NCBI RefSeq assembly: GCF_026163685.1
Contig: NZ_JAOXSR010000003.1
Coordinates: 248,001-312,000 of the forward strand
DNA from: Oerskovia flava
GTDB taxonomy: Bacteria > Actinomycetota > Actinomycetes > Actinomycetales > Cellulomonadaceae
DNA: 64,000 nt
Direction of reading: 5' to 3'
The notes under the pieces were generated by a model. The model had not been told where the DNA came from and did no database searches. It saw nothing but the letters and a program-made list of their open reading frames with translations. Position 1 is the stretch's first letter; each line of letters opens with the position of its first letter. Made by a program: the position numbers and the translations under genes. Positions 38,384 to 49,084 of this stretch are shown in pieces.

Positions 38384-41300
38384 TCAGCACTCGTGCCCGT
38401 CGTAGCCGGCGGTGAGGGTCGCCGACTCGTCCCCGTGGGTGACGTCCCAGGTCGCGGTGCCGGGCTCCAGCGCCGTGGCCCGGGAGTTGAACGTCTGGAA
38501 CGCTGACTTCCCGGGACCGACGTCGGCGAACGACTTCTTGCCGAACGGGGTCGTGACGGTGAGGTCGACGGGGTCGTCCTCGTCGTTGGTCGCCCGGACC
38601 GTGAGGAAGGCCCTGCCCCCGAGGCAGCGGGCAGCCGCCTCGATCGTGACGTCCAGCTCGTCCGCCGCGACCGCGGACGTCGGGGTGATCGTGATCTTGT
38701 CGAGGTGGGGTGCGTACTGCGAGCGTAGGAGCACACCCGGCCAGACGTCGGAGGCGTAGGTCACCCCGTCGTAGTTGGGCTTCTCCTCGGACGAGAACCG
38801 GATGGAGTTGGTGCCCTCGTCCAGCTCGACGAACACGGTGAGGTCCCAGAAGTTGTTCTGGTGGAACGAGTGCGGGAACGGCACCTTCTGGACCTCGCCG
38901 CCGTTCACCGAGATGTGGGCGTAGCGGGCGAGGGGGTCGGGGTTGTAGTGCGTGGCCGGCGACTGCTCCTGGTTGGAGTAGCGCACGGTCATCGCGTACG
39001 TGCCCGCGGCGGGCGCCTCGACGTCGGTGAACGTCAGCGTGCTGGCGTTCCCCGGTTCGCCGCCGACGTTCGTGACGGCCTGACCACCGCTGGCCAGCGT
39101 CAGGGTCGACACCTCGGCCGTGCCGGCGAGCTCGCCGTCCTCGGCCTCGTAGTCGGTCCCCGTCAGGGCGTCCGCGTCGAAGCTCACGCGCAGCCGGTCG
39201 ACGAGCGTCGTGCCGGAGCTGCCCTGGACCGTGACCTTGTTGATGCCACCGACCAGGAACGTCGTCACCTCGTCCGCGGTGGTGATCTCCCGGTCGTTGA
39301 CGACCAGGGTGCGCCCGCCGTCACCGGAGGCGTCCACCGAGAGGTGAGCACCGGCGTCGGTGGGGGAGTAGACCCAGAACGTCACCGACTGGTCCGCGCC
39401 GACCCGTGCGACACCGGACCCGGACACGCCGTCGACGCCGTAGTCGAGGACCGCGCCGTCGAGAGAGGCGTACTCGGCCTCGTAGCTCTCCTCGGTGTGC
39501 TCGGCGTTCGGCAGGGACAGGTCGATCTTGTCGACGATCGCGTCGCCCACGGTCGCCCCCGTGCCGTCGAGGCTCCGTGCGGCGAGGGTGATGACGTGCT
39601 CACCGGCGGTCAGGTCGACGGTGGTGTCGGCGTGGTCCCACACCACCCACTTGTACCCGAGGGGGAGGTGGATCTCCTGCTCGGTGGCGGGGTCGTCGTC
39701 GACGCGCAGGAACACGTTGGTCGGGCCCTGGTCCTGGACGGCCGCGTAGGTGTTGAGCGAGTTCGCGAAGACGCTCAGGTCGTAGGTGCCGTCCTGGGGG
39801 ACGTCGACGGTGAAGTCGAGCGTGACGTCCGACCCGGTGCGCAGACCGCCGACGTTGTACTCGCCGGACGTGTAGAAGCTGCCCTGGCGGGTGGGGCCAC
39901 CCTCGGGACCGTTGCGGGACCAGCCGGTCCCGGTGTGCGCGGCGTCCTCGGCCTCGTACGTCGCCTCCCAGACGGTCGGGCTGGTCGAGCTCGCGGACGC
40001 GTTCGACCCGGGGGTGAGGACGACCTGGTAGGCCGACTCGGCGTCCAGCGCCGGGGCGTCGTCGCCGCCGAAGTGGACGAGGAGGCCGCCGTTGGTGACC
40101 TGGGCGTCGTACTCGGCGACGGTGGGCGGGTTCGCGGAGTCGCCGATCTGACCCGTCCAGCCGATCTCCTTGATCTGCACGTGGACCGTGTCACCGAGCA
40201 GGTCGGTGGGCACGTTCTCGTAGGCGACGAAGGTCTCGCCGCCGGCGCCGCCGAGGATGGTGCGAACCTGCGCCTTCTCCTCGTCGAGGGTGGCCACGCC
40301 CTGCAGGGTGTAGCTGACGTTCGGGCGCGGCGGGGTGACCTTGACGGTGTTGCCGCTCATCTGCGCGTAGGCGTTGAGCAGCCACCACTGGCCGTTGGCG
40401 CGGTTGGCCTGCACGGCGGAGTCGGACAGGTTGCCGTCGATGTTCCAGTAGGCGATGTCGCCGAACACCTTCTTGTCCTCCAGCGCGGAGACCCACTGGA
40501 TCATCTGGCCCGGCACGGAGGTGTGGTAGTTGAACGCGTACTCGGTGATGTTGATCGGCAGCTCGACGCCCTCGTGCTCGGTGCCGGCGAAGATGTCGCG
40601 CTCCCAGCCGCGGTATCGGTCGACCGAGCTGCGGATGGTCGCCGGGTTGGACAGCTCGTGCCAGGCGACGATCTCGGGCACGGTGCCGGCCTCGACGGTG
40701 TGGGCCATGAAGCCACGGACCTGGTGGTAGAGGATCGACGTGTTCGGTCCGCTGATGCGGGCCTCGGGCCACTTGTCCTTGATGAGGTGGTAGGCGCGGT
40801 CCCAGGCGGCGAAGAAGTCGGTCGGGTCGTCGAGCCAGCTGACGCGGTTGTAGCTCCACTCCCCGGTGCCGAACATGTTGCCCTCGGGCTCGTTGTACGG
40901 CATGAGGACGATGTTGTCCTGGTACTCCTCGGGCAGCTCGAGGATCTGGTCGACCTGCAGCTCGAGCTTCTCCATGTACAGGTCGAGCTTCTCCTCGGGC
41001 GTGTCCCCGGGCCACTGGTACGGGAAGCCGCGGTGGACGTCGGTCATGTAGATGTACACGTCGCCGTCGGAGGAGTCGGCGATGGGCTTGACGACCTCGA
41101 GGGCGTCGGCGCCCGGGTGCTGCGGCCCGTCCTGGGCCTTGGTGGCCACGGTGCGCAGGTTGATGGCGTCCAGCAGGTTGTTCGAGGGGAGCCCCTGGTC
41201 GTACAGGCCGTACAACGTGCCCGAGGCCCCGCCGTGGAACGCGCCGGTGTCGTCCGCGAGGTCGACGGTCATCTGGCCGGGAAGCGTCACCCGGACGGTG

Positions 41301-42385
41301 GCCGTCACGGTCGTGCCGGTACCCACCACGACGCCGTCGACGGTGAACTGCCCGGTCTGGGCGTACGCGCTCGGGTCGATCTCGTCCCACTCGACGTCGA
41401 CCGCGCGCGCGATCCCGTCGCTGAAGGTGGCGTTCGCCGTCACGGGCAGCGTGGGAGCCGTGCCGCGCGTCGTCTCCACGGAGAAGCTGGTCGGGGAGAC
41501 GGACTCCAGCGTCGGGAGGTCCTGCCCGTACAGCTCGGCCACGCCGTCCGCCCCCAGGGCTGCGCCGTAGACGCGGAAGTCGTCGAGGGCACCGTCGAAG
41601 AAGGGATGGCCGGACCAGAAGGGCTTGCCGAGGAATCCGGAGGTGGTGTTCGTCGGCGAGTGCATGACGGCGTCGAGGTCGAGGGCGGCGTGGGTGCTGC
41701 CGATCTTCCGGCCGTTGAGGTAGTAGGTGATCGTGGACTGGTCGATCACGGTGACCGCGTTGACCCAGCTGCCCACCGGGAGCTTGCCGACGCTGGAGAC
41801 GCCGACCTCGGCGCCGTTGTTGACCGGCTTGATGGACGAGCGCGAGCGTGGGTCGCCGCCGAAGGAGGGGGTCAGGAACGTCGCGCGGGTGTTGTCGCGG
41901 CCGAGGTTGTAGACCCACTGGAAGTCAGGTCCGCCGTCCCACCTGACCCAGGTGGAGATCGTGGCGGCCTCGAGCCCGTCGAACACGCCGTTCGGGATCT
42001 CGACGTAGGGCGCGGAGGTCGATCCGGAGGCGCCGCCGGGCAGCGCGAGCGCGGCGCTCCCCGTCCTGGCCCCTTCGGGGAAGGTTGCGTTCGCCGCGTT
42101 GACGAGCGTCCCGTCCAGCCCGGAGGGGGACAGGTCCTCGATCACGCCGTCGCCGACCTGGGCGGGTTCGAAGTCGTAGTGCAGGACGAGCGCGTCGTCC
42201 GGCACGTCAGCGCTGGCGGCCGGTGCGAGCACCACGGCGGAGCCGAGGGTCGCCACGGTCAGGGTGGCGGCGAGCCCGCCGCTGATCGTCCTGAAGAGCG
42301 GAGTCGCGTGCTGGCGCGAACGCGCCTGTGTACGTCGTCGTACCACTGGATCCAACTTTCTCGTGTGACTGGACAGCCGGCGCAC
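38384..42385 (-). CDS. Secreted multidomain glycosidase (LamG, Ig-like, GH-A-like, CBM6/35-like)
   Basis: This 1333-residue exported protein has a long signal peptide ending near PAASADV, a LamG/concanavalin-like domain (about residues 65-275), a Big_4-type Ig-like part (DVEWDEIDPSAYAQTGQFTV) and a TIM-barrel-like catalytic region. MPYNEPEGNMFG resembles the clan GH-A acid/base motif (NEP) and NITEYAFNYH the nucleophile strand, closest in look to GH39-type enzymes, but I cannot fix the family. Three CBM6/35-like domains follow, starting YEAEDAAHTG, YEAEYASLDG and YEAEDGELAG, then the two-cysteine C-terminal module. The GTG start is uncertain; no ideal Shine-Dalgarno is near. A GAACCGGTTC operator lies 48 bases upstream. 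Confidence 0.75.
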   Translation of the reverse strand: MRRLSSHTRKLDPVVRRRTQARSRQHATPLFRTISGGLAATLTVATLGSAVVLAPAASADVPDDALVLHYDFEPAQVGDGVIEDLSPSGLDGTLVNAANATFPEGARTGSAALALPGGASGSTSAPYVEIPNGVFDGLEAATISTWVRWDGGPDFQWVYNLGRDNTRATFLTPSFGGDPRSRSSIKPVNNGAEVGVSSVGKLPVGSWVNAVTVIDQSTITYYLNGRKIGSTHAALDLDAVMHSPTNTTSGFLGKPFWSGHPFFDGALDDFRVYGAALGADGVAELYGQDLPTLESVSPTSFSVETTRGTAPTLPVTANATFSDGIARAVDVEWDEIDPSAYAQTGQFTVDGVVVGTGTTVTATVRVTLPGQMTVDLADDTGAFHGGASGTLYGLYDQGLPSNNLLDAINLRTVATKAQDGPQHPGADALEVVKPIADSSDGDVYIYMTDVHRGFPYQWPGDTPEEKLDLYMEKLELQVDQILELPEEYQDNIVLMPYNEPEGNMFGTGEWSYNRVSWLDDPTDFFAAWDRAYHLIKDKWPEARISGPNTSILYHQVRGFMAHTVEAGTVPEIVAWHELSNPATIRSSVDRYRGWERDIFAGTEHEGVELPINITEYAFNYHTSVPGQMIQWVSALEDKKVFGDIAYWNIDGNLSDSAVQANRANGQWWLLNAYAQMSGNTVKVTPPRPNVSYTLQGVATLDEEKAQVRTILGGAGGETFVAYENVPTDLLGDTVHVQIKEIGWTGQIGDSANPPTVAEYDAQVTNGGLLVHFGGDDAPALDAESAYQVVLTPGSNASASSTSPTVWEATYEAEDAAHTGTGWSRNGPEGGPTRQGSFYTSGEYNVGGLRTGSDVTLDFTVDVPQDGTYDLSVFANSLNTYAAVQDQGPTNVFLRVDDDPATEQEIHLPLGYKWVVWDHADTTVDLTAGEHVITLAARSLDGTGATVGDAIVDKIDLSLPNAEHTEESYEAEYASLDGAVLDYGVDGVSGSGVARVGADQSVTFWVYSPTDAGAHLSVDASGDGGRTLVVNDREITTADEVTTFLVGGINKVTVQGSSGTTLVDRLRVSFDADALTGTDYEAEDGELAGTAEVSTLTLASGGQAVTNVGGEPGNASTLTFTDVEAPAAGTYAMTVRYSNQEQSPATHYNPDPLARYAHISVNGGEVQKVPFPHSFHQNNFWDLTVFVELDEGTNSIRFSSEEKPNYDGVTYASDVWPGVLLRSQYAPHLDKITITPTSAVAADELDVTIEAAARCLGGRAFLTVRATNDEDDPVDLTVTTPFGKKSFADVGPGKSAFQTFNSRATALEPGTATWDVTHGDESATLTAGYDGHEC

Positions 42386-42432
42386 TCGCCCCCGGGTCGT
42401 CTCCTCCGTGCGAGCGCCCGACGCTGGGCGTG

Positions 42433-42446
42433 GTGAACCGGTTCGA
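42433..42446. promoter_or_regulatory. Second LacI operator type, copy 1
   Basis: GAACCGGTTC (42435-42444) is a perfect ten-base palindrome inside GTGAACCGGTTCGA. It lies between the divergent glycosidase and LacI genes and matches 12 of 14 positions of the site before the binding-protein gene at 43670. Confidence 0.68.
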
Positions 42447-42575
42447 TTACGCTAGCCTGACCTGTGAGGGTGGTCAAGGGTGCGTTCACGACAACAGCTC
42501 GCCTTGTTCGACGGCGCGAGGTGGCCTCCATCAACCCCGCGGCGCGCGGGATCCACGGGCTGAAGGAGAGGGCAC

Positions 42576-43583
42576 ATGGCGAACATCGGAGACGTCGCAC
42601 GGGAGGCGGGGGTCTCGCGCAGCACGGTGTCGTACGTGCTGTCGGGCAAGCGCACGATCTCGCAGGAGACCAAGGACCGTGTGTACGCGGCGATCCAGCG
42701 GCTGGACTTCTCGGTCCGCTCCAGCGCCCGAGCCCTCGCCACGGCCCGCACCATGAACATCGGCGTGGTCGTCCAGTTCCACCACGCCGAGTTCCAGCCG
42801 GCGCTCGCCGCCTACCTCGTGGCGTTGTCCGACGCCGCCCGGGAGTCCGGCTACGGCCTGCAGCTCATCACGGACGGCGACGGCGTGCGTGCCGTGAGCG
42901 ACGCCATCGCCGGGCGGCAGGTCGACGGCCTCGTCCTGCTGAACGTCGTCTCCGACGACCCGCGCCTCGATCCCATCGAGAACGCCGGGTTCCCGGCGGT
43001 CCTGGTCGGCATGGCCGACGGCTCCAGCGTGGACGCGGTCGACCTGGACTTCGCCAGCGGCGCGCAGACCTTGGTCAACCATCTCCACGCCAGGGGCCAC
43101 CGGGAGGTGACCTTCGTGCGCTGGCCGCAGGAGATCTACGAGGCCGGCCACACCTTCGCCACGAGGTTCGAGCGTGCCGCGCGCGCCAGGGCGCGGCGCC
43201 TGGGGATCAGGCTCGTCGACCACTACTGCCGTCCCGAGCCGGCCGAGATCCGCCAGGACCTGCGTGACCTGCTGCACCGCCGTGACGCATCCACCGCGTT
43301 GCTCGTCCACAACGACGGCGCCGTCGCGATGTTGCCGACCGTGCTGCACGACGCGCACCTCGAAGTCCCCCAGGACCTGTCGGTGGTCAGCCTGCACTCC
43401 TCCGAGCTGGCCGACTTCTTCGCGCTGCCCTACACCTCGGTCGAGTCCCAGCCCGAGCTGGTGGCGCAGTCCGCCGTGCGGCTGCTCACCCAGCGCATGA
43501 CGGGCGCCGCCGAGACGACCACCTCGCACATGCTCGTGCCCCCGACGCTGGCCGATCGCGGCAGCGTGCGCGACCTGAGCTGA
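42576..43583 (+). CDS. LacI-family regulator of the second sugar island
   Basis: This 335-residue regulator begins directly with the LacI HTH (IGDVAREAGVSRSTVSYVLS) and the hinge (SSARALATARTMNIGVVVQF). The sugar-binding domain follows with QVDGLVLLNV and GHREVTFVRW. It is divergent from the multidomain glycosidase and upstream of the binding protein, two permeases and GH31, with matching palindromes before both transcription units. It should repress the island until its sugar is present; the sugar is unknown. Confidence 0.92.
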   Translation: MANIGDVAREAGVSRSTVSYVLSGKRTISQETKDRVYAAIQRLDFSVRSSARALATARTMNIGVVVQFHHAEFQPALAAYLVALSDAARESGYGLQLITDGDGVRAVSDAIAGRQVDGLVLLNVVSDDPRLDPIENAGFPAVLVGMADGSSVDAVDLDFASGAQTLVNHLHARGHREVTFVRWPQEIYEAGHTFATRFERAARARARRLGIRLVDHYCRPEPAEIRQDLRDLLHRRDASTALLVHNDGAVAMLPTVLHDAHLEVPQDLSVVSLHSSELADFFALPYTSVESQPELVAQSAVRLLTQRMTGAAETTTSHMLVPPTLADRGSVRDLS

Positions 43584-43612
43584 CCCGGCACCGCGCGGAG
43601 AGCGCGCCAATC

Positions 43613-43649
43613 ATCGAACCGTCGACTCCATCGGGGTTGACGGTTCGAT
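43613..43649. terminator. Inverted repeat after the LacI gene
   Basis: ATCGAACCGTC (43613-43623) pairs perfectly with GACGGTTCGAT (43639-43649) around a 15-base loop, followed by TCTTTG. It lies 29 bases after the LacI stop and suits a terminator. Its arms contain GAACCG, half of the nearby operator, so it might also be a weak LacI site. Confidence 0.5.
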
Positions 43650-43669
43650 TCTTTGTCAGTACTTTCAAC

Positions 43670-43683
43670 TCGAACCGGTTCGA
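43670..43683. promoter_or_regulatory. Second LacI operator type, copy 2
   Basis: TCGAACCGGTTCGA is a perfect 14-base palindrome, 72 bases before the binding-protein start. It is the best match in the window to the operator type of the adjacent LacI regulator and probably controls the transport and GH31 operon. Confidence 0.72.
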
Positions 43684-43755
43684 CAAGCCGGAGGCTGTGA
43701 CATCTCCGGAACGGACCGGGACGCAGCAACAGCCCTCGATGTGGAGGAAAGTGCG

Positions 43756-45018
43756 ATGGCAACGAAGCGCAGGCGGAACCTCGCCGCACTGGGCACCGTG
43801 ACGCTCGTGGGCCTGGCGCTCAGCGCGTGCGGTGCAGGCGGCGGAGCAGTGCCCGAGGCGACCGGCGACGCGAGCGAAGGCACCACGACCGACGAGATCA
43901 CGTTCTGGGACCCCTACCCCCAGCACACCGGCGGCACGCCGTGGGACGACCTCGTCACGAGCTGTGCGCCGGAAGGGTCGACGATCACGCGGACGGCGGC
44001 CCCGACGGCGGACCTGATGAACCAGCTCACGACGGCGGTCCGCGAGGGCAACGCGCCCGACGTGATCCTGCTGGACAACCCGGCCGTGCCGGAGGCGGTC
44101 TCCGCGGGTCTGGTCGCGGCCGCCGACCAGGTCGGCATCGACGCGGCCGGGATCGACGAGAACCTGCTCGGCCCGGGGGTGATCGACGGGGAGGTCTACG
44201 GCATCCCGTTCGGCTCGAACGCCCTCGGTCTGTACTACAACGCGGACATCCTCGACGCGGCCGGCATCGACCCCGCGTCGATCACGGACTGGGCGGCGCT
44301 GGAGGATGCGCTCGCGGCGGTCACCGAGGCCGGCAGCGAGGGCATCACGTTCTCCGGCATCGCCGGCGAGGAGGGTGTCTTCCAGGCCCTGCCGTGGTTC
44401 TGGGGCTCGGGTGCGGACCTGTCTGACCTGGGGTCGGCCGACGCGGTCAGCACCGGCCAGGTCATGTCGGACTGGATCGGCGACGGGTACGCGCCGAGGT
44501 CCGCGGCGACGGACAACCAGTCGGCCTCCTGGGACCTGTTCCTCACCGGGGAGTACGCGTTCGGCGAGAACGGGTCGTGGTTCGCGGCCGCGGCCGCCGA
44601 CTCGGGCTTCGAGGTCGGGGTGATCCCGATCCCGGCCAAGGACGGAGGAGTGGCGCCGGTCCCGACGGGTGGAGAGTTCCTCATGGCTCCGGTGCAGTCG
44701 GAGAACGCGTCCGACCACTTCGCCAACGCCGCCGCGGTCATCTCCTGCCTGACCGAGGGCGACAAGCTCCTGGAGACGAACGAGACGCTCGGGTACCTCG
44801 CGGCCAAGCCCGACGTGCGGGCCGAGCAGGTGGCGGCCAACCCGCTGTGGGAGCCGTGGGCACCCATCGTGGAGGGCGCCGAGGGTCGCACCACCGAGCT
44901 GGGCGCCGAGTACGTCGACGTCTCGGCACGTCTGAGCGAAGCCCTGCAGGTCTCGCTCAACGCCGCCGGTGACACGGCCCAGGTCGAGACCGCGTTCCAG
45001 GACGCCGGCGAGGGCTGA
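43756..45018 (+). CDS. Sugar ABC transporter substrate-binding lipoprotein
   Basis: This 420-residue binding protein carries a signal peptide with lipobox (GLALSACGAG). EITFWDPYPQHTGGTPWDDLV and PDVILLDNPAVPEAVSAGLV are typical of cluster-D oligosaccharide-binding proteins (MalE/UgpB type). GGAGG precedes the ATG. It starts the operon under the GAACCGGTTC site and is followed by two permeases. The substrate probably derives from the action of the neighbouring glycosidases, but its identity is not visible. Confidence 0.88.
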   Translation: MATKRRRNLAALGTVTLVGLALSACGAGGGAVPEATGDASEGTTTDEITFWDPYPQHTGGTPWDDLVTSCAPEGSTITRTAAPTADLMNQLTTAVREGNAPDVILLDNPAVPEAVSAGLVAAADQVGIDAAGIDENLLGPGVIDGEVYGIPFGSNALGLYYNADILDAAGIDPASITDWAALEDALAAVTEAGSEGITFSGIAGEEGVFQALPWFWGSGADLSDLGSADAVSTGQVMSDWIGDGYAPRSAATDNQSASWDLFLTGEYAFGENGSWFAAAAADSGFEVGVIPIPAKDGGVAPVPTGGEFLMAPVQSENASDHFANAAAVISCLTEGDKLLETNETLGYLAAKPDVRAEQVAANPLWEPWAPIVEGAEGRTTELGAEYVDVSARLSEALQVSLNAAGDTAQVETAFQDAGEG

Positions 45019-45026
45019 TCCGCCGT

Positions 45027-45098
45027 CCCTGGCGGCGACGCCCGATGCCCTGGGTCTGCGAGCCCGTGAGCACCGAGCGCCGAGCGCCGCCGCCAGGG
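45027..45098 (+). other. Stem between binding protein and permease genes
   Basis: CCCTGGCGGCG (45027-45037) pairs perfectly with CGCCGCCAGGG (45088-45098), enclosing about 50 bases. It occupies most of the 127-base gap, as the hairpin at 12906-12943 does in the other importer operon, and may likewise set unequal expression. Confidence 0.4.
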
Positions 45099-45145
45099 TG
45101 GACGCCTCGTGCACCAGCCACCGTCCCGTCAGTCAGGTGAACCCC

Positions 45146-46120
45146 ATGTCGTCCTCAACGTTGCCGGCCCGAGCGCCGGCCGGTCCGCGACACCCCGACC
45201 CGGCCGTGTCGCCGTCCGACCATCCCCGCCGGCGTCGGCCGAGCCTCTCGCCCCGATGGGCGGCGGCGGCGTTCGCGGCGCCCCTGGTCCTCTACCTCCT
45301 GCTGTTCTACGTGTACCCGCTCGTGCAGAACTTCTCGATGAGCTTGCACGAGTACGACCGCGCCACCTTCGTCTACGGCGGAGCGCCGTTCGTCGGCTTC
45401 GACATCTATGCCGACATCCTCGGCCAGGACCGGTTCCGGCGGATCGCGGTGCAGACCGCGGTCTTCACGGTCGTCTCCCTGGTCGTGCAGTACGTCGCGG
45501 GCCTGGGGCTCGCGGTGTTCTTCCGCCGCAGCTTCCCCCTGTCGAGCGTGCTGCGGGCGATGTTCCTCGTGCCGTGGCTGCTGCCGGTGATCGTCTCCGG
45601 GACGACCTGGCAGTGGATGATGAACGCCGACAACGGTGTCCTCAACCGGTTCCTCGGCGTCTTCGGGGCGGACCCGGTCTGGTGGTTGAACGCCGAGAAC
45701 GCGTTGATGGCGGTCATCATCGCCAACATCTGGCTCGGCATCCCGTTCAACCTCGTCATCCTGTACTCGGGCCTGCAGAACATCCCGGGCGAGCTGTACG
45801 AGGCCTCGGCGCTGGACGGCGCCAGCACCCGGCAGCAGTTCTGGCGGATCACGCTGCCGCTGCTGCGCCCGGTCTCGATGATCACTCTGCTGCTCGGGCT
45901 GGTCTACACGCTCAAGGTCGTGGACATCATCTGGATCATGACCATGGGCACCGGCACGTCCCAGACCCTGGCCACCTGGTCCTACTCGATGGCGTTCGGC
46001 AAGGGCACCTCGGCCTCGATCCAGTACTCGGAGGCATCGGCCGTCGGCAGCGTCCTGCTCGTCGTCGCGCTCGCCTTCGGCCTGCTGTACCTCGCACTGC
46101 AACGCAAGCAGGAGGACTGA
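45146..46120 (+). CDS. Sugar ABC transporter permease (MalF-type)
   Basis: This 324-residue permease has a Pro/Arg-rich cytoplasmic start and six helices, with the docking loop EASALDGASTRQQFW near residue 225. The ATG at 45146 has AGGTGA five bases before. It overlaps the next permease by one base (TGATG). No ATPase is encoded in the operon. Confidence 0.9.
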   Translation: MSSSTLPARAPAGPRHPDPAVSPSDHPRRRRPSLSPRWAAAAFAAPLVLYLLLFYVYPLVQNFSMSLHEYDRATFVYGGAPFVGFDIYADILGQDRFRRIAVQTAVFTVVSLVVQYVAGLGLAVFFRRSFPLSSVLRAMFLVPWLLPVIVSGTTWQWMMNADNGVLNRFLGVFGADPVWWLNAENALMAVIIANIWLGIPFNLVILYSGLQNIPGELYEASALDGASTRQQFWRITLPLLRPVSMITLLLGLVYTLKVVDIIWIMTMGTGTSQTLATWSYSMAFGKGTSASIQYSEASAVGSVLLVVALAFGLLYLALQRKQED

Positions 46121-46941
46121 TGCTGCACACCACGCATCGCACCTGGTGGAAGACGGCGATCGCCATGGTCCTGACCGCGGTCATGCTCTTCCCGGTCTAC
46201 TGGATGGTCAACGTCTCGCTCACGCGCCGCGAGTCCATCCGCCGCGGCGACCTGCTGCCGTTCGACCTCACGTTCGGGCACTACGCCACGGTGCTCTCCG
46301 AGCAGCTGCCCTATCTGGCGACCAGCCTCGTCGTCGGTCTCGGCACGGTCGTGCTGACGCTGGCCATCTCGATGCCCGCCGCCTACGCGATCGCCAAGCT
46401 CGCGCTGCCCGGCGGGCAGGGCCTGAGCTTCGTGCTGATCGTCGCCCAGATGGTCCCGGCGGTCGTCATGTCCCTCGGCTTCTACTCGATCTACTCGAGC
46501 CTGGGCGTGCTCAACACGATCCCGGGACTGATCGTCGCAGACTCCACCATCGCGGTCCCCTTCGCCGTCATGCTGTTCACGGCGTTCATGCGCGGCATCC
46601 CGCGCGAGCTCGTCCAGGCGGCCCAGCTCGACGGCGCGTCGCCCTGGCGCACCTTCCGCTCCGTCGTCGTGCCGATCTCCCGCAACTCGGTGGTGACCGC
46701 GTCCCTGTTCGCGTTCCTGTGGTCCTGGTCGGACTTCATCTTCGCGTCGACGCTCAACCGCGAGGGCGGAGACCTGCGCCCGATCACGATGGGCATCTAC
46801 AACTACATCGGCGCGCAGAACCAGGAGTGGGGGCCGATGATGGCCACGGCGGTGGTCGCCTCCGTCCCGACGGCGCTGCTCCTCATCGCCGCGCAGCGCT
46901 ACGTCGCCGCCGGCGTGACCGCCGGCGCGGTGAAGGACTAG
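46120..46941 (+). CDS. Sugar ABC transporter permease (MalG-type)
   Basis: This 273-residue permease is the partner of the preceding one. Its docking loop is QAAQLDGASPWRTF, where the canonical EAA starts with Gln. Six helices are visible, beginning MVLTAVMLFPVYWMVNVSLT. It ends 115 bases before the GH31 gene, and the two are probably cotranscribed. Confidence 0.9.
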   Translation: MLHTTHRTWWKTAIAMVLTAVMLFPVYWMVNVSLTRRESIRRGDLLPFDLTFGHYATVLSEQLPYLATSLVVGLGTVVLTLAISMPAAYAIAKLALPGGQGLSFVLIVAQMVPAVVMSLGFYSIYSSLGVLNTIPGLIVADSTIAVPFAVMLFTAFMRGIPRELVQAAQLDGASPWRTFRSVVVPISRNSVVTASLFAFLWSWSDFIFASTLNREGGDLRPITMGIYNYIGAQNQEWGPMMATAVVASVPTALLLIAAQRYVAAGVTAGAVKD

Positions 46942-47056
46942 GGCACCGGTGCTCGACGGCACCAGCGGCACCGAAAGCACTTGCAGCACGGACAGCACGG
47001 CATCACGCCGCCACGACCCTGCGGGTCGCGCGGCACCACGGGAGAGGAAGCGCACG

Positions 47057-49084
47057 ATGAGGACCTTCGACGTCGAGGGGCACCGCCTGGTCTGGCAGGG
47101 GGACGGGGAGACGCTCGTCGTCGAGCCGTGGGGGGCGGACAGCCTGCGGGTGCGGGCGACGATGAGGGGGGAGGTCCTGGACACCGACTGGGCACTTCTC
47201 GAGCCTGCCGACCGGGACGCCCGGATCACCGTCGACGGCGACCGGGCCGTGCTGGTCAACGGCCGGATCAGCGCCCGCCTGCACGCGACGGGCGGGTACG
47301 ACGAGCAGGTCGGCTACGAGACGACGTCGTGCACGATCGAGTTCGTCGACCAGCACGGCAGGACGCTGCTGCGCGAGCTCGACGCCGGCGGGTCCCTCAA
47401 GCTGCGGTCCCGCGCGTTCGCGCCGCTGCTCGGTGGTGACCACAAGCTCTCGGCGAGCTTCGAGCCCAACCCGGGCGAGAAGCTCTTCGGGATGGGCCAG
47501 TACCAGCAGCACATCCTCGACATCAAGGGCAGCACGTTCGAGCTCGCCCACCGCAACTCCCAGGCCAGCGTCCCCTTCGTCCTGTCCAGCGCCGGCTACG
47601 GATTCCTGTGGCACAACCCGGCGATCGGTCAGGCGACGTTCGCCACCAACCGCACCTCGTGGACCGCGGACTCCACCCAGCAGCTCGACTACTGGATCAC
47701 CGCCGGGGACACCCCGGCGCAGATCACCAGCGCGTACGCCGACGCCACCGGGCACGTGCCGATGATGCCCGAGTACGGACTGGGCTACTGGCAGTGCAAG
47801 CTGCGGTACTGGAACCAGGAGCAGCTGCTCGGCGTCGCCCGGGAGCACAAGCGCCGCGGGCTTCCCCTGGACGTCATCGTCGCCGACTTCTTCCACTGGC
47901 CGCAGATGGGCGACTTCCGGTTCGACGAGGAGTTCTGGCCCGACCCCCGGGCCATGGTCGCCGAGCTCAACGACCTCGGCGTCGAGCTCATGGTCTCGAT
48001 CTGGCCCCAGGTGTCGACCTCGTCGGAGAACTTCGCGGAGTTTCGCCGGCGCAACTTCCTCGTCAAGGCCGAGCGCGGTCCGGACGTGCAGATGGGGTTC
48101 CAGGGACCGTCGATGTTCTACGACGTCACCAACCCCGCGGCCCGCGAACGCCTCTGGGAGATCGTCACCGCGAACTACTACGACCACGGGATCCGGTCGT
48201 TCTGGCTCGACGAGGCCGAGCCCGAGTACGGCGTCTACGACTTCGACAACTACCGCTACCACGCCGGGACGAACGCGCAGGTCGGCAACATCTACCCCCA
48301 GCTCTACGCGCGCGCGTTCTACGACGGTCAGGTCGAGGCGGGGCAGAGCGACGTCGTCAACCTGGTGCGGTGCGCCTGGGCCGGGAGCCAGCGCTACGGC
48401 GTGCTCGTGTGGTCCGGCGACATCCACTCGACCTTCGAGGACCTGCGCCGCCAGATCACGGCGGGCATCCACATGGGCGTCGCGGGCATCCCCTGGTTCA
48501 CCACCGACATCGGCGGGTTCCACCACGGCGACTCCACCGACCCGGCCTTCCACGAGCTGCTGATCCGTTGGACGCAGTTCGGCACGTTCTGCCCGGTCAT
48601 GCGGATGCACGGCGACCGCCTGCCGTACGAGGACGTGACCGCCGGCGACGGCACGCCCCGGCTGCGCTCGGGCGGGCCGAACGAGCTGTGGAGCTTCGGC
48701 GACGACGTCTACGACGTGCTCACCCGCTTCCTCGAGCTGCGGGAGACCCTCCGCCCCTACACCCGTCACCTCATGGCCGAGGCCCACCACCACGGTCAGC
48801 CGGTCCTGCGGGGCCTGTTCCACGAGTTCCCCGACGACGAGCGCGCGTGGGGCGTCGACGACCAGTACCTGTACGGTCCCGACCTCCTCGTGGCGCCCGT
48901 CACGACGGCCGGTGCGCGCGAGCGCACCGTCTACCTGCCCGCCGGGGCGCGGTGGGTCGAGCACGCCACCGGTCGGGTGCATGACGGCGGCCAGGAGCTC
49001 GTCGTCGACGCGCCGCTCGACGTCGTGCCGGTCTTCGTGCGCGACCGGACGCTCGACGAGCTCCTGGAGCGGCTCGACACCTGA
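47057..49084 (+). CDS. GH31 family glycosidase (alpha-glucosidase/alpha-xylosidase-like)
   Basis: This 675-residue enzyme has no signal peptide and should act inside the cell on the imported oligosaccharide. The GH31 nucleophile region is FWLDEAEPEYG and the acid/base region VWSGDIHSTFEDL; GIPWFTTDIGGF is a third family motif. The nucleophile motif is not the WxDMNE of classical alpha-glucosidases, so alpha-xylosidase, alpha-galactosidase or another specificity is possible. ATG at 47057 with GAGAGGAA upstream. Last gene of the island; its stop is ten bases from the stop of the convergent MFS gene. Confidence 0.88.
   Translation: MRTFDVEGHRLVWQGDGETLVVEPWGADSLRVRATMRGEVLDTDWALLEPADRDARITVDGDRAVLVNGRISARLHATGGYDEQVGYETTSCTIEFVDQHGRTLLRELDAGGSLKLRSRAFAPLLGGDHKLSASFEPNPGEKLFGMGQYQQHILDIKGSTFELAHRNSQASVPFVLSSAGYGFLWHNPAIGQATFATNRTSWTADSTQQLDYWITAGDTPAQITSAYADATGHVPMMPEYGLGYWQCKLRYWNQEQLLGVAREHKRRGLPLDVIVADFFHWPQMGDFRFDEEFWPDPRAMVAELNDLGVELMVSIWPQVSTSSENFAEFRRRNFLVKAERGPDVQMGFQGPSMFYDVTNPAARERLWEIVTANYYDHGIRSFWLDEAEPEYGVYDFDNYRYHAGTNAQVGNIYPQLYARAFYDGQVEAGQSDVVNLVRCAWAGSQRYGVLVWSGDIHSTFEDLRRQITAGIHMGVAGIPWFTTDIGGFHHGDSTDPAFHELLIRWTQFGTFCPVMRMHGDRLPYEDVTAGDGTPRLRSGGPNELWSFGDDVYDVLTRFLELRETLRPYTRHLMAEAHHHGQPVLRGLFHEFPDDERAWGVDDQYLYGPDLLVAPVTTAGARERTVYLPAGARWVEHATGRVHDGGQELVVDAPLDVVPVFVRDRTLDELLERLDT

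Follow-up and report, generated by a model that had tools for sequence, protein, structure and literature searches.

The window analysed here is a stretch of 64,000 nucleotides of Oerskovia flava (contig NZ_JAOXSR010000003.1), and the system in question is a sugar-use island at positions 38384-49084. In this island, the gene for a secreted glycoside hydrolase lies on the minus strand, divergent from a lacI gene that is followed on the plus strand by genes for a sugar-binding protein, two permeases and an intracellular enzyme of glycoside hydrolase family 31 (GH31). On a balance of probabilities that tips narrowly in its favour, the island is a LacI-controlled module for a disaccharide from the side-chain tips of plant polysaccharides, most likely alpha-D-xylopyranosyl-L-arabinose, which a family 39 (GH39) enzyme would release, an importer would take up and GH31 would split. 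The secreted GH39 would be a disaccharide-releasing alpha-L-arabinofuranosidase that cuts behind an L-arabinofuranose bearing one further sugar, with CBM6/35-like carbohydrate-binding modules (CBM) keeping the enzyme on its substrate. The ATP-binding cassette (ABC) importer would carry the freed disaccharide into the cell, cytosolic GH31 would remove the terminal alpha-D-xylose, and the L-arabinose product would enter the araBAD pathway, whose operon has the same operator in this genome. When the sugar is absent, LacI would sit on GAACCGGTTC at two places, in the region shared by GH39 and lacI and in front of the operon for the transporter and GH31. By analogy with described systems, this logic of release, import and splitting is likely. 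The parts are of known kinds; what is new is the GH31 partner within a module of the GAfase/AAfase type.

The anatomy of the island and its operator are well supported. An earlier note, made from the letters of the window, had listed the same six genes, and all of them were located by open reading frames (ORFs) and Pfam matches. It had left the GH-A-like region of the secreted enzyme without a family; the region is indeed catalytic, and it can now be assigned. Pfam returned no GH39 match and no catalytic family for this protein. In a phmmer search against PDB sequences, the catalytic region matched 5u22 (E 2e-35) and 8uwt (E 3e-19), and Foldseek with an AlphaFold2 model of residues 360-800 (predicted local distance difference test, pLDDT, 85) retrieved the same two structures (E 9e-37 and 2e-34), followed by another GH39 (E 6e-19). 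The entry 5u22 is N2152/NF2152 from Neocallimastix, and the title of 8uwt names a GH39-like enzyme. Because these two lead by both sequence and fold, the catalytic region is, as judged from homology and modelling, GH39 of the NF2152/GAfase branch. The acid/base Glu499 (NEPEG) and the nucleophile Glu615 (ITEY) are invariant in 20 aligned sequences, and the nucleophile is preceded by Thr614. Secretion is predicted from a reading of the N-terminus. The LamG domain noticed earlier is a clear Pfam match. The three CBM6/35-like domains proposed alongside it are retained in part: two score under the Pfam gathering threshold, one of these being backed by 2wz8, and the middle one appears in the model only. 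The C-terminal model (pLDDT 80.7, predicted template modelling score 0.62) has three beta-sandwiches and a last beta domain, and its best single-domain Foldseek match is the CBM35 2wz8 (template modelling score over the target 0.85).

The nature of the disaccharide is read from GH31. The nearest solved relative of this enzyme is MeXyl31 (5zn6, 824 bits), with 56.3% identity (364 of 647 aligned positions). The stretches WLDEAEPEY, RCAWAGSQRYG, WSGDI and TTDIGGF are common to both, and 86 of 104 positions are identical over seven selected conserved MeXyl31 stretches, WLDEAEPEY included, which we take to line the active site. The domains PF01055 (E 2e-80) and PF21365 (E 8e-26) were found, with the nucleophile Asp421 in WLDEAEPEY and the acid/base Asp491 (numbering of the longer ORF, 46949-49084; comparison with Cellulosimicrobium cellulans L104 makes the ATG at 47057 the likelier start). 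The earlier note had called this nucleophile motif atypical, a claim ruled out by its presence in MeXyl31, so that the window enzyme is, by sequence, an ordinary MeXyl31-like alpha-xylosidase. MeXyl31 comes from a soil metagenome and is reported to be an alpha-xylosidase (PMC7527525). The sugar removed by GH31 is therefore most likely alpha-D-xylose, and this points to alpha-D-xylopyranosyl-L-arabinose as the imported disaccharide; the arabinose proposed behind the xylose is what would distinguish the window enzyme from MeXyl31. The GH31 enzymes BACOVA_03422 and alpha-Xylp_1211 remove alpha-D-xylose from corn glucuronoarabinoxylan (PMC4491172, PMC7176698), the latter acting on alpha-Xylp-(1,3)-Araf side chains (Xylp, xylopyranosyl; Araf, arabinofuranosyl; PMC7176698). 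They were compared with the window GH31 by description, and they differ from it in acting on polymer or oligosaccharide.

Relatives of this GH31 gave 26 matches in 23 of 99 genomes, its own included. In the 22 that were looked at (the other four are under 50% identity), a close GH39 was a neighbour in 6 and GH127 in 10, four of these within the 6; three of the GH127 neighbours are at 38-39% identity. Other neighbours were two arabinofuranosidase-type genes (locus L100), a GH2 (L101) and a GH43 with Melibiase_2 (L095). No xyloglucanase was seen beside the 22 loci, where neighbours were mostly named by eye or tblastn and some were scanned with Pfam. This bears on xyloglucan use, in which importer and GH31 would handle isoprimeverose and GH39 would trim arabinosylated xyloglucan. 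Xyloglucan oligosaccharides or p-nitrophenyl xyloside are the substrates of most described alpha-xylosidases (PMC7176698), tomato arabinoxyloglucan is reported to have Araf-beta1,3-Araf tips (PMC10850190), and GH31-importer operons without GH39 exist. However, the genome has no GH12 (GH74, GH5, GH16 and GH3 were not searched for), and Pfam found no endo-xyloglucanase among the six island genes (GH74, GH5 and GH16 were outside the genome-wide search). Isoprimeverose use is considered improbable. Assignment of both enzymes to a known pathway such as xyloglucan use, which would have spoken against the uncommon target glycan proposed in the earlier note, has so far not emerged, and an uncommon glycan is supported as probable.

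The regulatory side of the module is marked by the 10-mer GAACCGGTTC, which occurs twice in the window, at 42435 and 43672, once in each intergenic control region. The 14-mer TCGAACCGGTTCGA at 43670 has the second copy in its middle, and the first copy is imperfect at the left flank. These are the two matching palindromes that had been noticed at 42433 and 43670, and they are far above chance (0.04 expected per window; two copies in 0 of 100 shuffles). The 80 named homologous loci among the matches listed include 16 shorter than 19 kb, which do not enter the count; of the other 64, all longer, 59 carry the operator. They hold 146 sites, of which 141 lie outside called genes, and 135 are followed by a called start no more than 300 bp downstream. 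Since these loci are related by descent, the 59 are not 59 independent events, and other palindromes served as the control: 319 of equal G+C had in the same loci a median of 0, a 95th percentile of 8 and a maximum of 32 loci. This conservation upholds the view of a single sugar island under a LacI-type operator. Among the 17 closest loci, the window included, 14 have GAACCGGTTC; those without it are L036 and, near contig ends, L039 and L042. It was not found in the four distant loci L051-L054. As a LacI-type helix-turn-helix protein and a conserved palindrome upstream of the target genes are both present, we infer that LacI binds this site. Its VSRSTVS is presumably the recognition helix; VSRST[VA]S is kept in the three LacI proteins compared with that of the window (contig 22, L106 and a Streptomyces), while LacI proteins as a whole diverge widely (about 32% identity in Streptomyces).

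The operator also ties the island to arabinose. There are seven exact sites genome-wide: the window and a sister island on contig 22 have two each, and one (C1:492729; L055:9730) separates a lacI from the genes for a ribulokinase-like protein, an Aldolase_II protein and L-arabinose isomerase (araB-araD-araA). Because the operator precedes these genes, what the regulon harvests probably includes arabinose. The last two sites were set aside as probably due to chance, one (C1:856587; L056) lying inside a called gene and the other (C19:239340; L057) being intergenic, 77 bp before a gene read by eye as housekeeping. A search allowing two mismatches was not used (180 sites, compared with 50 in the reversed control); it gave a near-match, TCGAACCGATTCGA, 75 bp from the second contig 22 site. 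The LacI beside araB has the helix VSHQTVS, unlike the VSRSTVS of the window, and arabinose catabolism may be tied to the island through a second repressor or cross-regulation. GH43, arabinofuranosidase-type and GH127-type genes lie around the arabinose operon (C1:466000-521900; L055, L214, L215). The sister island (contig 22, about 136000-146800; L035) holds a GH39 of 61% identity, LacI, an importer, GH127 and the same operator; in its GH39, Arg replaces Tyr at the aligned -2 position.

Relatives of the secreted enzyme were found in 20 of 99 genomes, its own included (E 1e-10), and a scan of named genomes gave at least 80 loci, the nearest among the matches listed being that of Cellulosimicrobium cellulans MP1 (88%). 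A relative of permease A scoring over 200 bits is present in 53 of the 64 long loci among the matches listed. The intracellular enzyme between the permeases and GH39 varies between GH31, GH127, MGH1-like and GH36. Pfam on ten genes in this gap found GH127 in nine and MGH1-like in one, and tblastn found GH127 also in L037, L039, L040 and L044. The commonest label is MGH1-like (35 of 64 long named loci listed, one of them also with GH127), mostly in Streptomyces. Of the distant loci, two (L051 and L052) contain complete GH36 genes; in the other two (L053 and L054) the Melibiase match is weaker, and L053 has GH127 as well. In Glycomyces (L144 and L154), the genes for GH39, LacI, sugar-binding protein, permease A, permease B and GH31 are contiguous. 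Gene calls in homologous loci come from a simple script based on codon usage, and the names of many neighbours from reading by eye. Partner labels of L035-L054 and L093 were assigned by hand; those of L104-L183 are tblastn matches (over 300 bits for GH31 and GH127, over 150 for MGH1-like) within the locus, about 10 kb on each side, and mark proximity, with no operon membership implied. The MGH1-like protein (PF22422) stands in place of GH127 or GH31 in L043 (12955-14667) and in many Streptomyces loci among L112-L181, its PDB matches being weak. It is a candidate arabinoside hydrolase family, for which we know of no described activity.

The closest described counterparts are the clusters of GAfase (Bifidobacterium longum JCM7052) and AAfase (B. 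pseudocatenulatum MCC10289), which likewise comprise an extracellular GH39 with galactose-binding-like domains, LacI, a sugar-binding protein, two permeases and one intracellular tip glycosidase (PMC10688797). There, the partner is a GH36, proposed or shown to remove the tip sugar of the imported disaccharide, whereas the window has GH31, and the window enzyme additionally carries LamG and Big_4. Its identity to the GAfase-like L052 is about 40%; the bifidobacterial enzymes themselves were compared by description. NF2152, the rumen-fungal GH39 that gave the best match by sequence and fold, is an alpha-L-(beta-1,2)-arabinofuranobiosidase (PMC10688797) and differs in having Asn before the nucleophile (INEY) where the window has Thr (ITEY). 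The BauR1 regulon of bifidobacteria (GH121, GH127, ABC importer, LacI) likewise places under LacI control the release of an arabinose disaccharide, its import and its splitting inside the cell, with GH121 where the window has GH39 (PMC5928203). A word search of the main text of that paper, motif logos in figures being outside it, found no GH39, GH31 or GAACC.

The partner enzyme tracks the GH39 branch: the Asn-type (GAfase-like) L051 and L052 go with GH36, forms with Asn or Asp before the nucleophile with GH127 or MGH1-like, and the Thr/Ser forms of the window clade with GH31. Among 97 GH39 sequences of at least 55% identity (at least one identical pair, L038 and L126, is included), Thr/Ser occurs in 11 and Asn/Asp in 86. 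GH31 lies within 10 kb in 7 of the 11 (L104 also with GH127), no partner was found in 3, and 1 is at a contig end. GH31 alone accompanies none of the 86 Asn/Asp forms, which have GH31 together with GH127 (14), GH127 (16), MGH1-like (39), the last two together (1) or no partner (5), with 11 left uncalled. In a quick tree, from which the distant second GH39 copies L046 and L047 were left out, the 11 Thr/Ser forms make one clade that includes the window (Shimodaira-Hasegawa-like approximate likelihood ratio 89), and the full set of partner labels requires 35 changes, where shuffling gave 63.1 on average and 0 of 200 shuffles went as low. Thr/Ser arises by three changes: in the window clade, in the GH36-linked L051, L052 and L054, and in the distant L093, which has GH31 and GH127. 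With few characterised enzymes behind it, a link of Thr/Ser to pyranosyl tips and of Asn/Asp to furanosyl tips fits these data; the Asp form L053, with its divergent Melibiase and GH127, suits it less clearly. The signature also bears on a furanose alternative, in which an NF2152-like GH39 would free beta-L-Araf-L-Ara for splitting by the contig 22 GH127, and GH31 would serve another oligosaccharide under the same regulator. The operator shared with the contig 22 island speaks for it, and so does the GH127 gene after GH31 in C. cellulans L104. However, the window GH39 lacks the Asn/Asp found in all 86 close relatives outside its clade, and in Glycomyces L144 and L154, loci of 19.6 and 21.3 kb, GH39 and GH31 are present and GH127 is not, so this alternative is considered unlikely.

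Several observations weigh against the alpha-D-xylopyranosyl-L-arabinose module, the L104 arrangement among them. GH31 occurs together with GH127 in 14 of the 86 Asn/Asp forms, and L036, with a GH39 of 77% identity and a GH31, lacks both a related importer and an exact operator. Operons of binding protein, permeases and GH31 without GH39 are found in L089, L092 and L103; LacI was seen in L089 and L092, both with the operator. The strains carrying these three may live on disaccharide freed by others. On the tree, the label 'GH31 only' needs 6 changes for its 6 rows, and 500 of 500 shuffles are as low; it is unclustered because rows without a found partner lie between, and it falls to 2 changes once these are dropped. 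Since the 11 Thr/Ser forms are one clade, their link with GH31 is a single evolutionary event, with no significant correlation. There are three independent pairs only, one in the expected direction and two without difference, and therefore no test can reach significance. The GH31 tree groups the window with C. cellulans (100), separately from the Glycomyces clade, and the GH39-GH31 pairing may therefore have been assembled more than once.

Residue Tyr446 is of little help here. By alignment it stands at the position of NF2152 Glu110 and AAfase Tyr116, and also at that of GAfase Asn119, whose Asn it does not match. The equivalence with AAfase Tyr116 is alignment-based (the tyrosine precedes the acid/base by 53 residues here and by 74 in AAfase), and Tyr is the usual residue in the Asn/Asp forms too, including most of those linked to GH127 or MGH1-like. 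As it is common outside the window clade, it was dropped as a discriminating mark. It enters into an arabinopyranose alternative, in which an AAfase-like GH39 would free beta-L-arabinopyranosyl-(1,3)-L-Ara from arabinogalactan and GH31 would replace GH36 as a beta-L-arabinopyranosidase. Besides the Tyr446 alignment, this alternative is favoured by the Thr before the nucleophile in the AAfase-like L195 and L197 (the tyrosine-to-acid/base spacing of L195 is 74, as in AAfase) and by both tips being pentopyranoses. The generality of Tyr446 in the GH127- and MGH1-linked branches and the closeness of GH31 to MeXyl31 across the conserved stretches count against it, and it is regarded as doubtful, on a par with isoprimeverose use.

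The source of the alpha-D-xylopyranosyl-L-arabinose is a further point at which the proposal is weakened, as no GH10 or GH11 Pfam match was obtained in this genome. The same profile searches found GH10, GH11 and GH12 in 4, 1 and 2 of 14 control genomes. GH43 gave 12 matches, 10 of them above the cut-off, some with arabinofuranosidase near the arabinose operon. Since GH43 enzymes are present and GH10, GH11 and GH12 had no match, arabinan or arabinogalactan may be the source polymer; alternatively, the island may do no more than strip tips. Corn-fibre xylan has the alpha-D-Xylp-(1,3)-alpha-L-Araf-(1,2)- side chain, from which a GH31 removes the xylose (PMC7176698), and another GH31 is specific for corn xylan over xyloglucan oligosaccharide (PMC4491172).

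Table. Features of the island, in coordinates of the window
Feature	Position	Strand	Evidence
Predicted secreted multidomain GH39-type glycoside hydrolase, 1333 amino acids; order: signal region, LamG, Big_4, GH39, three CBM6/35-like domains, C-terminal beta domain	38384..42385	-	Pfam, phmmer, models
LamG / Laminin_G_3 domain, residues 124-282	41540..42016	-	Pfam PF13385 E 4e-17
Big_4 Ig-like domain, residues 301-355	41321..41485	-	Pfam PF07532 E 1e-10
Predicted GH39 catalytic module, modelled residues 360-800	39986..41308	-	phmmer, AlphaFold2 and Foldseek
CBM6-like beta-sandwich, residues ~801-960	39506..39985	-	Pfam CBM_6 E 5e-5 (below gathering score); model
Second CBM-like beta-sandwich, residues ~965-1070	39176..39493	-	Model strand pattern only
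CBM35-like domain, residues ~1077-1237	38675..39157	-	phmmer 2wz8 E 3e-12; Pfam CBM_35 1e-4 (below gathering score); Foldseek
Operator 1, GAACCGGTTC	42435..42444	.	GH39/lacI divergent region, 50 bp upstream of the listed GH39 start
LacI-family regulator, VSRSTVS helix	42576..43583	+	Pfam PF00356, PF13377
Terminator-like end of lacI: perfect 11-bp inverted repeat ATCGAACCGTC / GACGGTTCGAT, then TCTTT	43613..43649	.	Read directly
Operator 2, centre of TCGAACCGGTTCGA	43672..43681	.	Upstream of the binding-protein operon
ABC importer sugar-binding protein, ATG at 43756	43741..45018	+	Pfam SBP_bac_8 E 3e-38
Permease A (MalF type)	45146..46120	+	Pfam PF00528; best NCBIfam MalF, under cut-off
Permease B (MalG type)	46117..46941	+	Pfam PF00528; best NCBIfam MalG, under cut-off
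GH31, predicted MeXyl31-like alpha-xylosidase	47057..49084	+	Pfam PF01055 E 2e-80; 5zn6

NCBIfam gave no name above its cut-offs for the island proteins, and comparison of LacI and the binding protein with PDB sequences gave general family matches only. Both arms of the terminator-like hairpin contain the operator half-site letters CGAACCG, which may be chance or a further regulator contact.

Summarizing, the computations establish the gene order, the families, the conserved operator, the recurrent linkage and the residue signature of one clade; binding by LacI, release of a disaccharide, its identity and the polysaccharide it comes from are inferred. A wider proposal is put forward tentatively and at rather less than even chance. 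The Thr/Ser clade of GH39 would represent a new specificity and consist of 3-O-alpha-D-xylosyl-alpha-L-arabinofuranosidases that excise whole alpha-D-Xylp-(1,3)-L-Ara chains, which GH31 would then split, and in actinobacteria the partner enzyme would read out the product of GH39 under one operator. No description of a GH39 that releases alpha-xylosyl-arabinose was found in the open-access PubMed Central literature (subscription papers being outside this search). Arabinofuranosidases alone had a negligible effect on the capped side chain in corn fibre (PMC7176698). If the proposal is true, the chains excised would be the ones that block ordinary arabinofuranosidases, and one enzyme would strip the capped side chain of grass xylan. 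Moreover, many actinobacterial GH39 enzymes are uncharacterised, and the pattern of partner swapping would make their products easier to predict.

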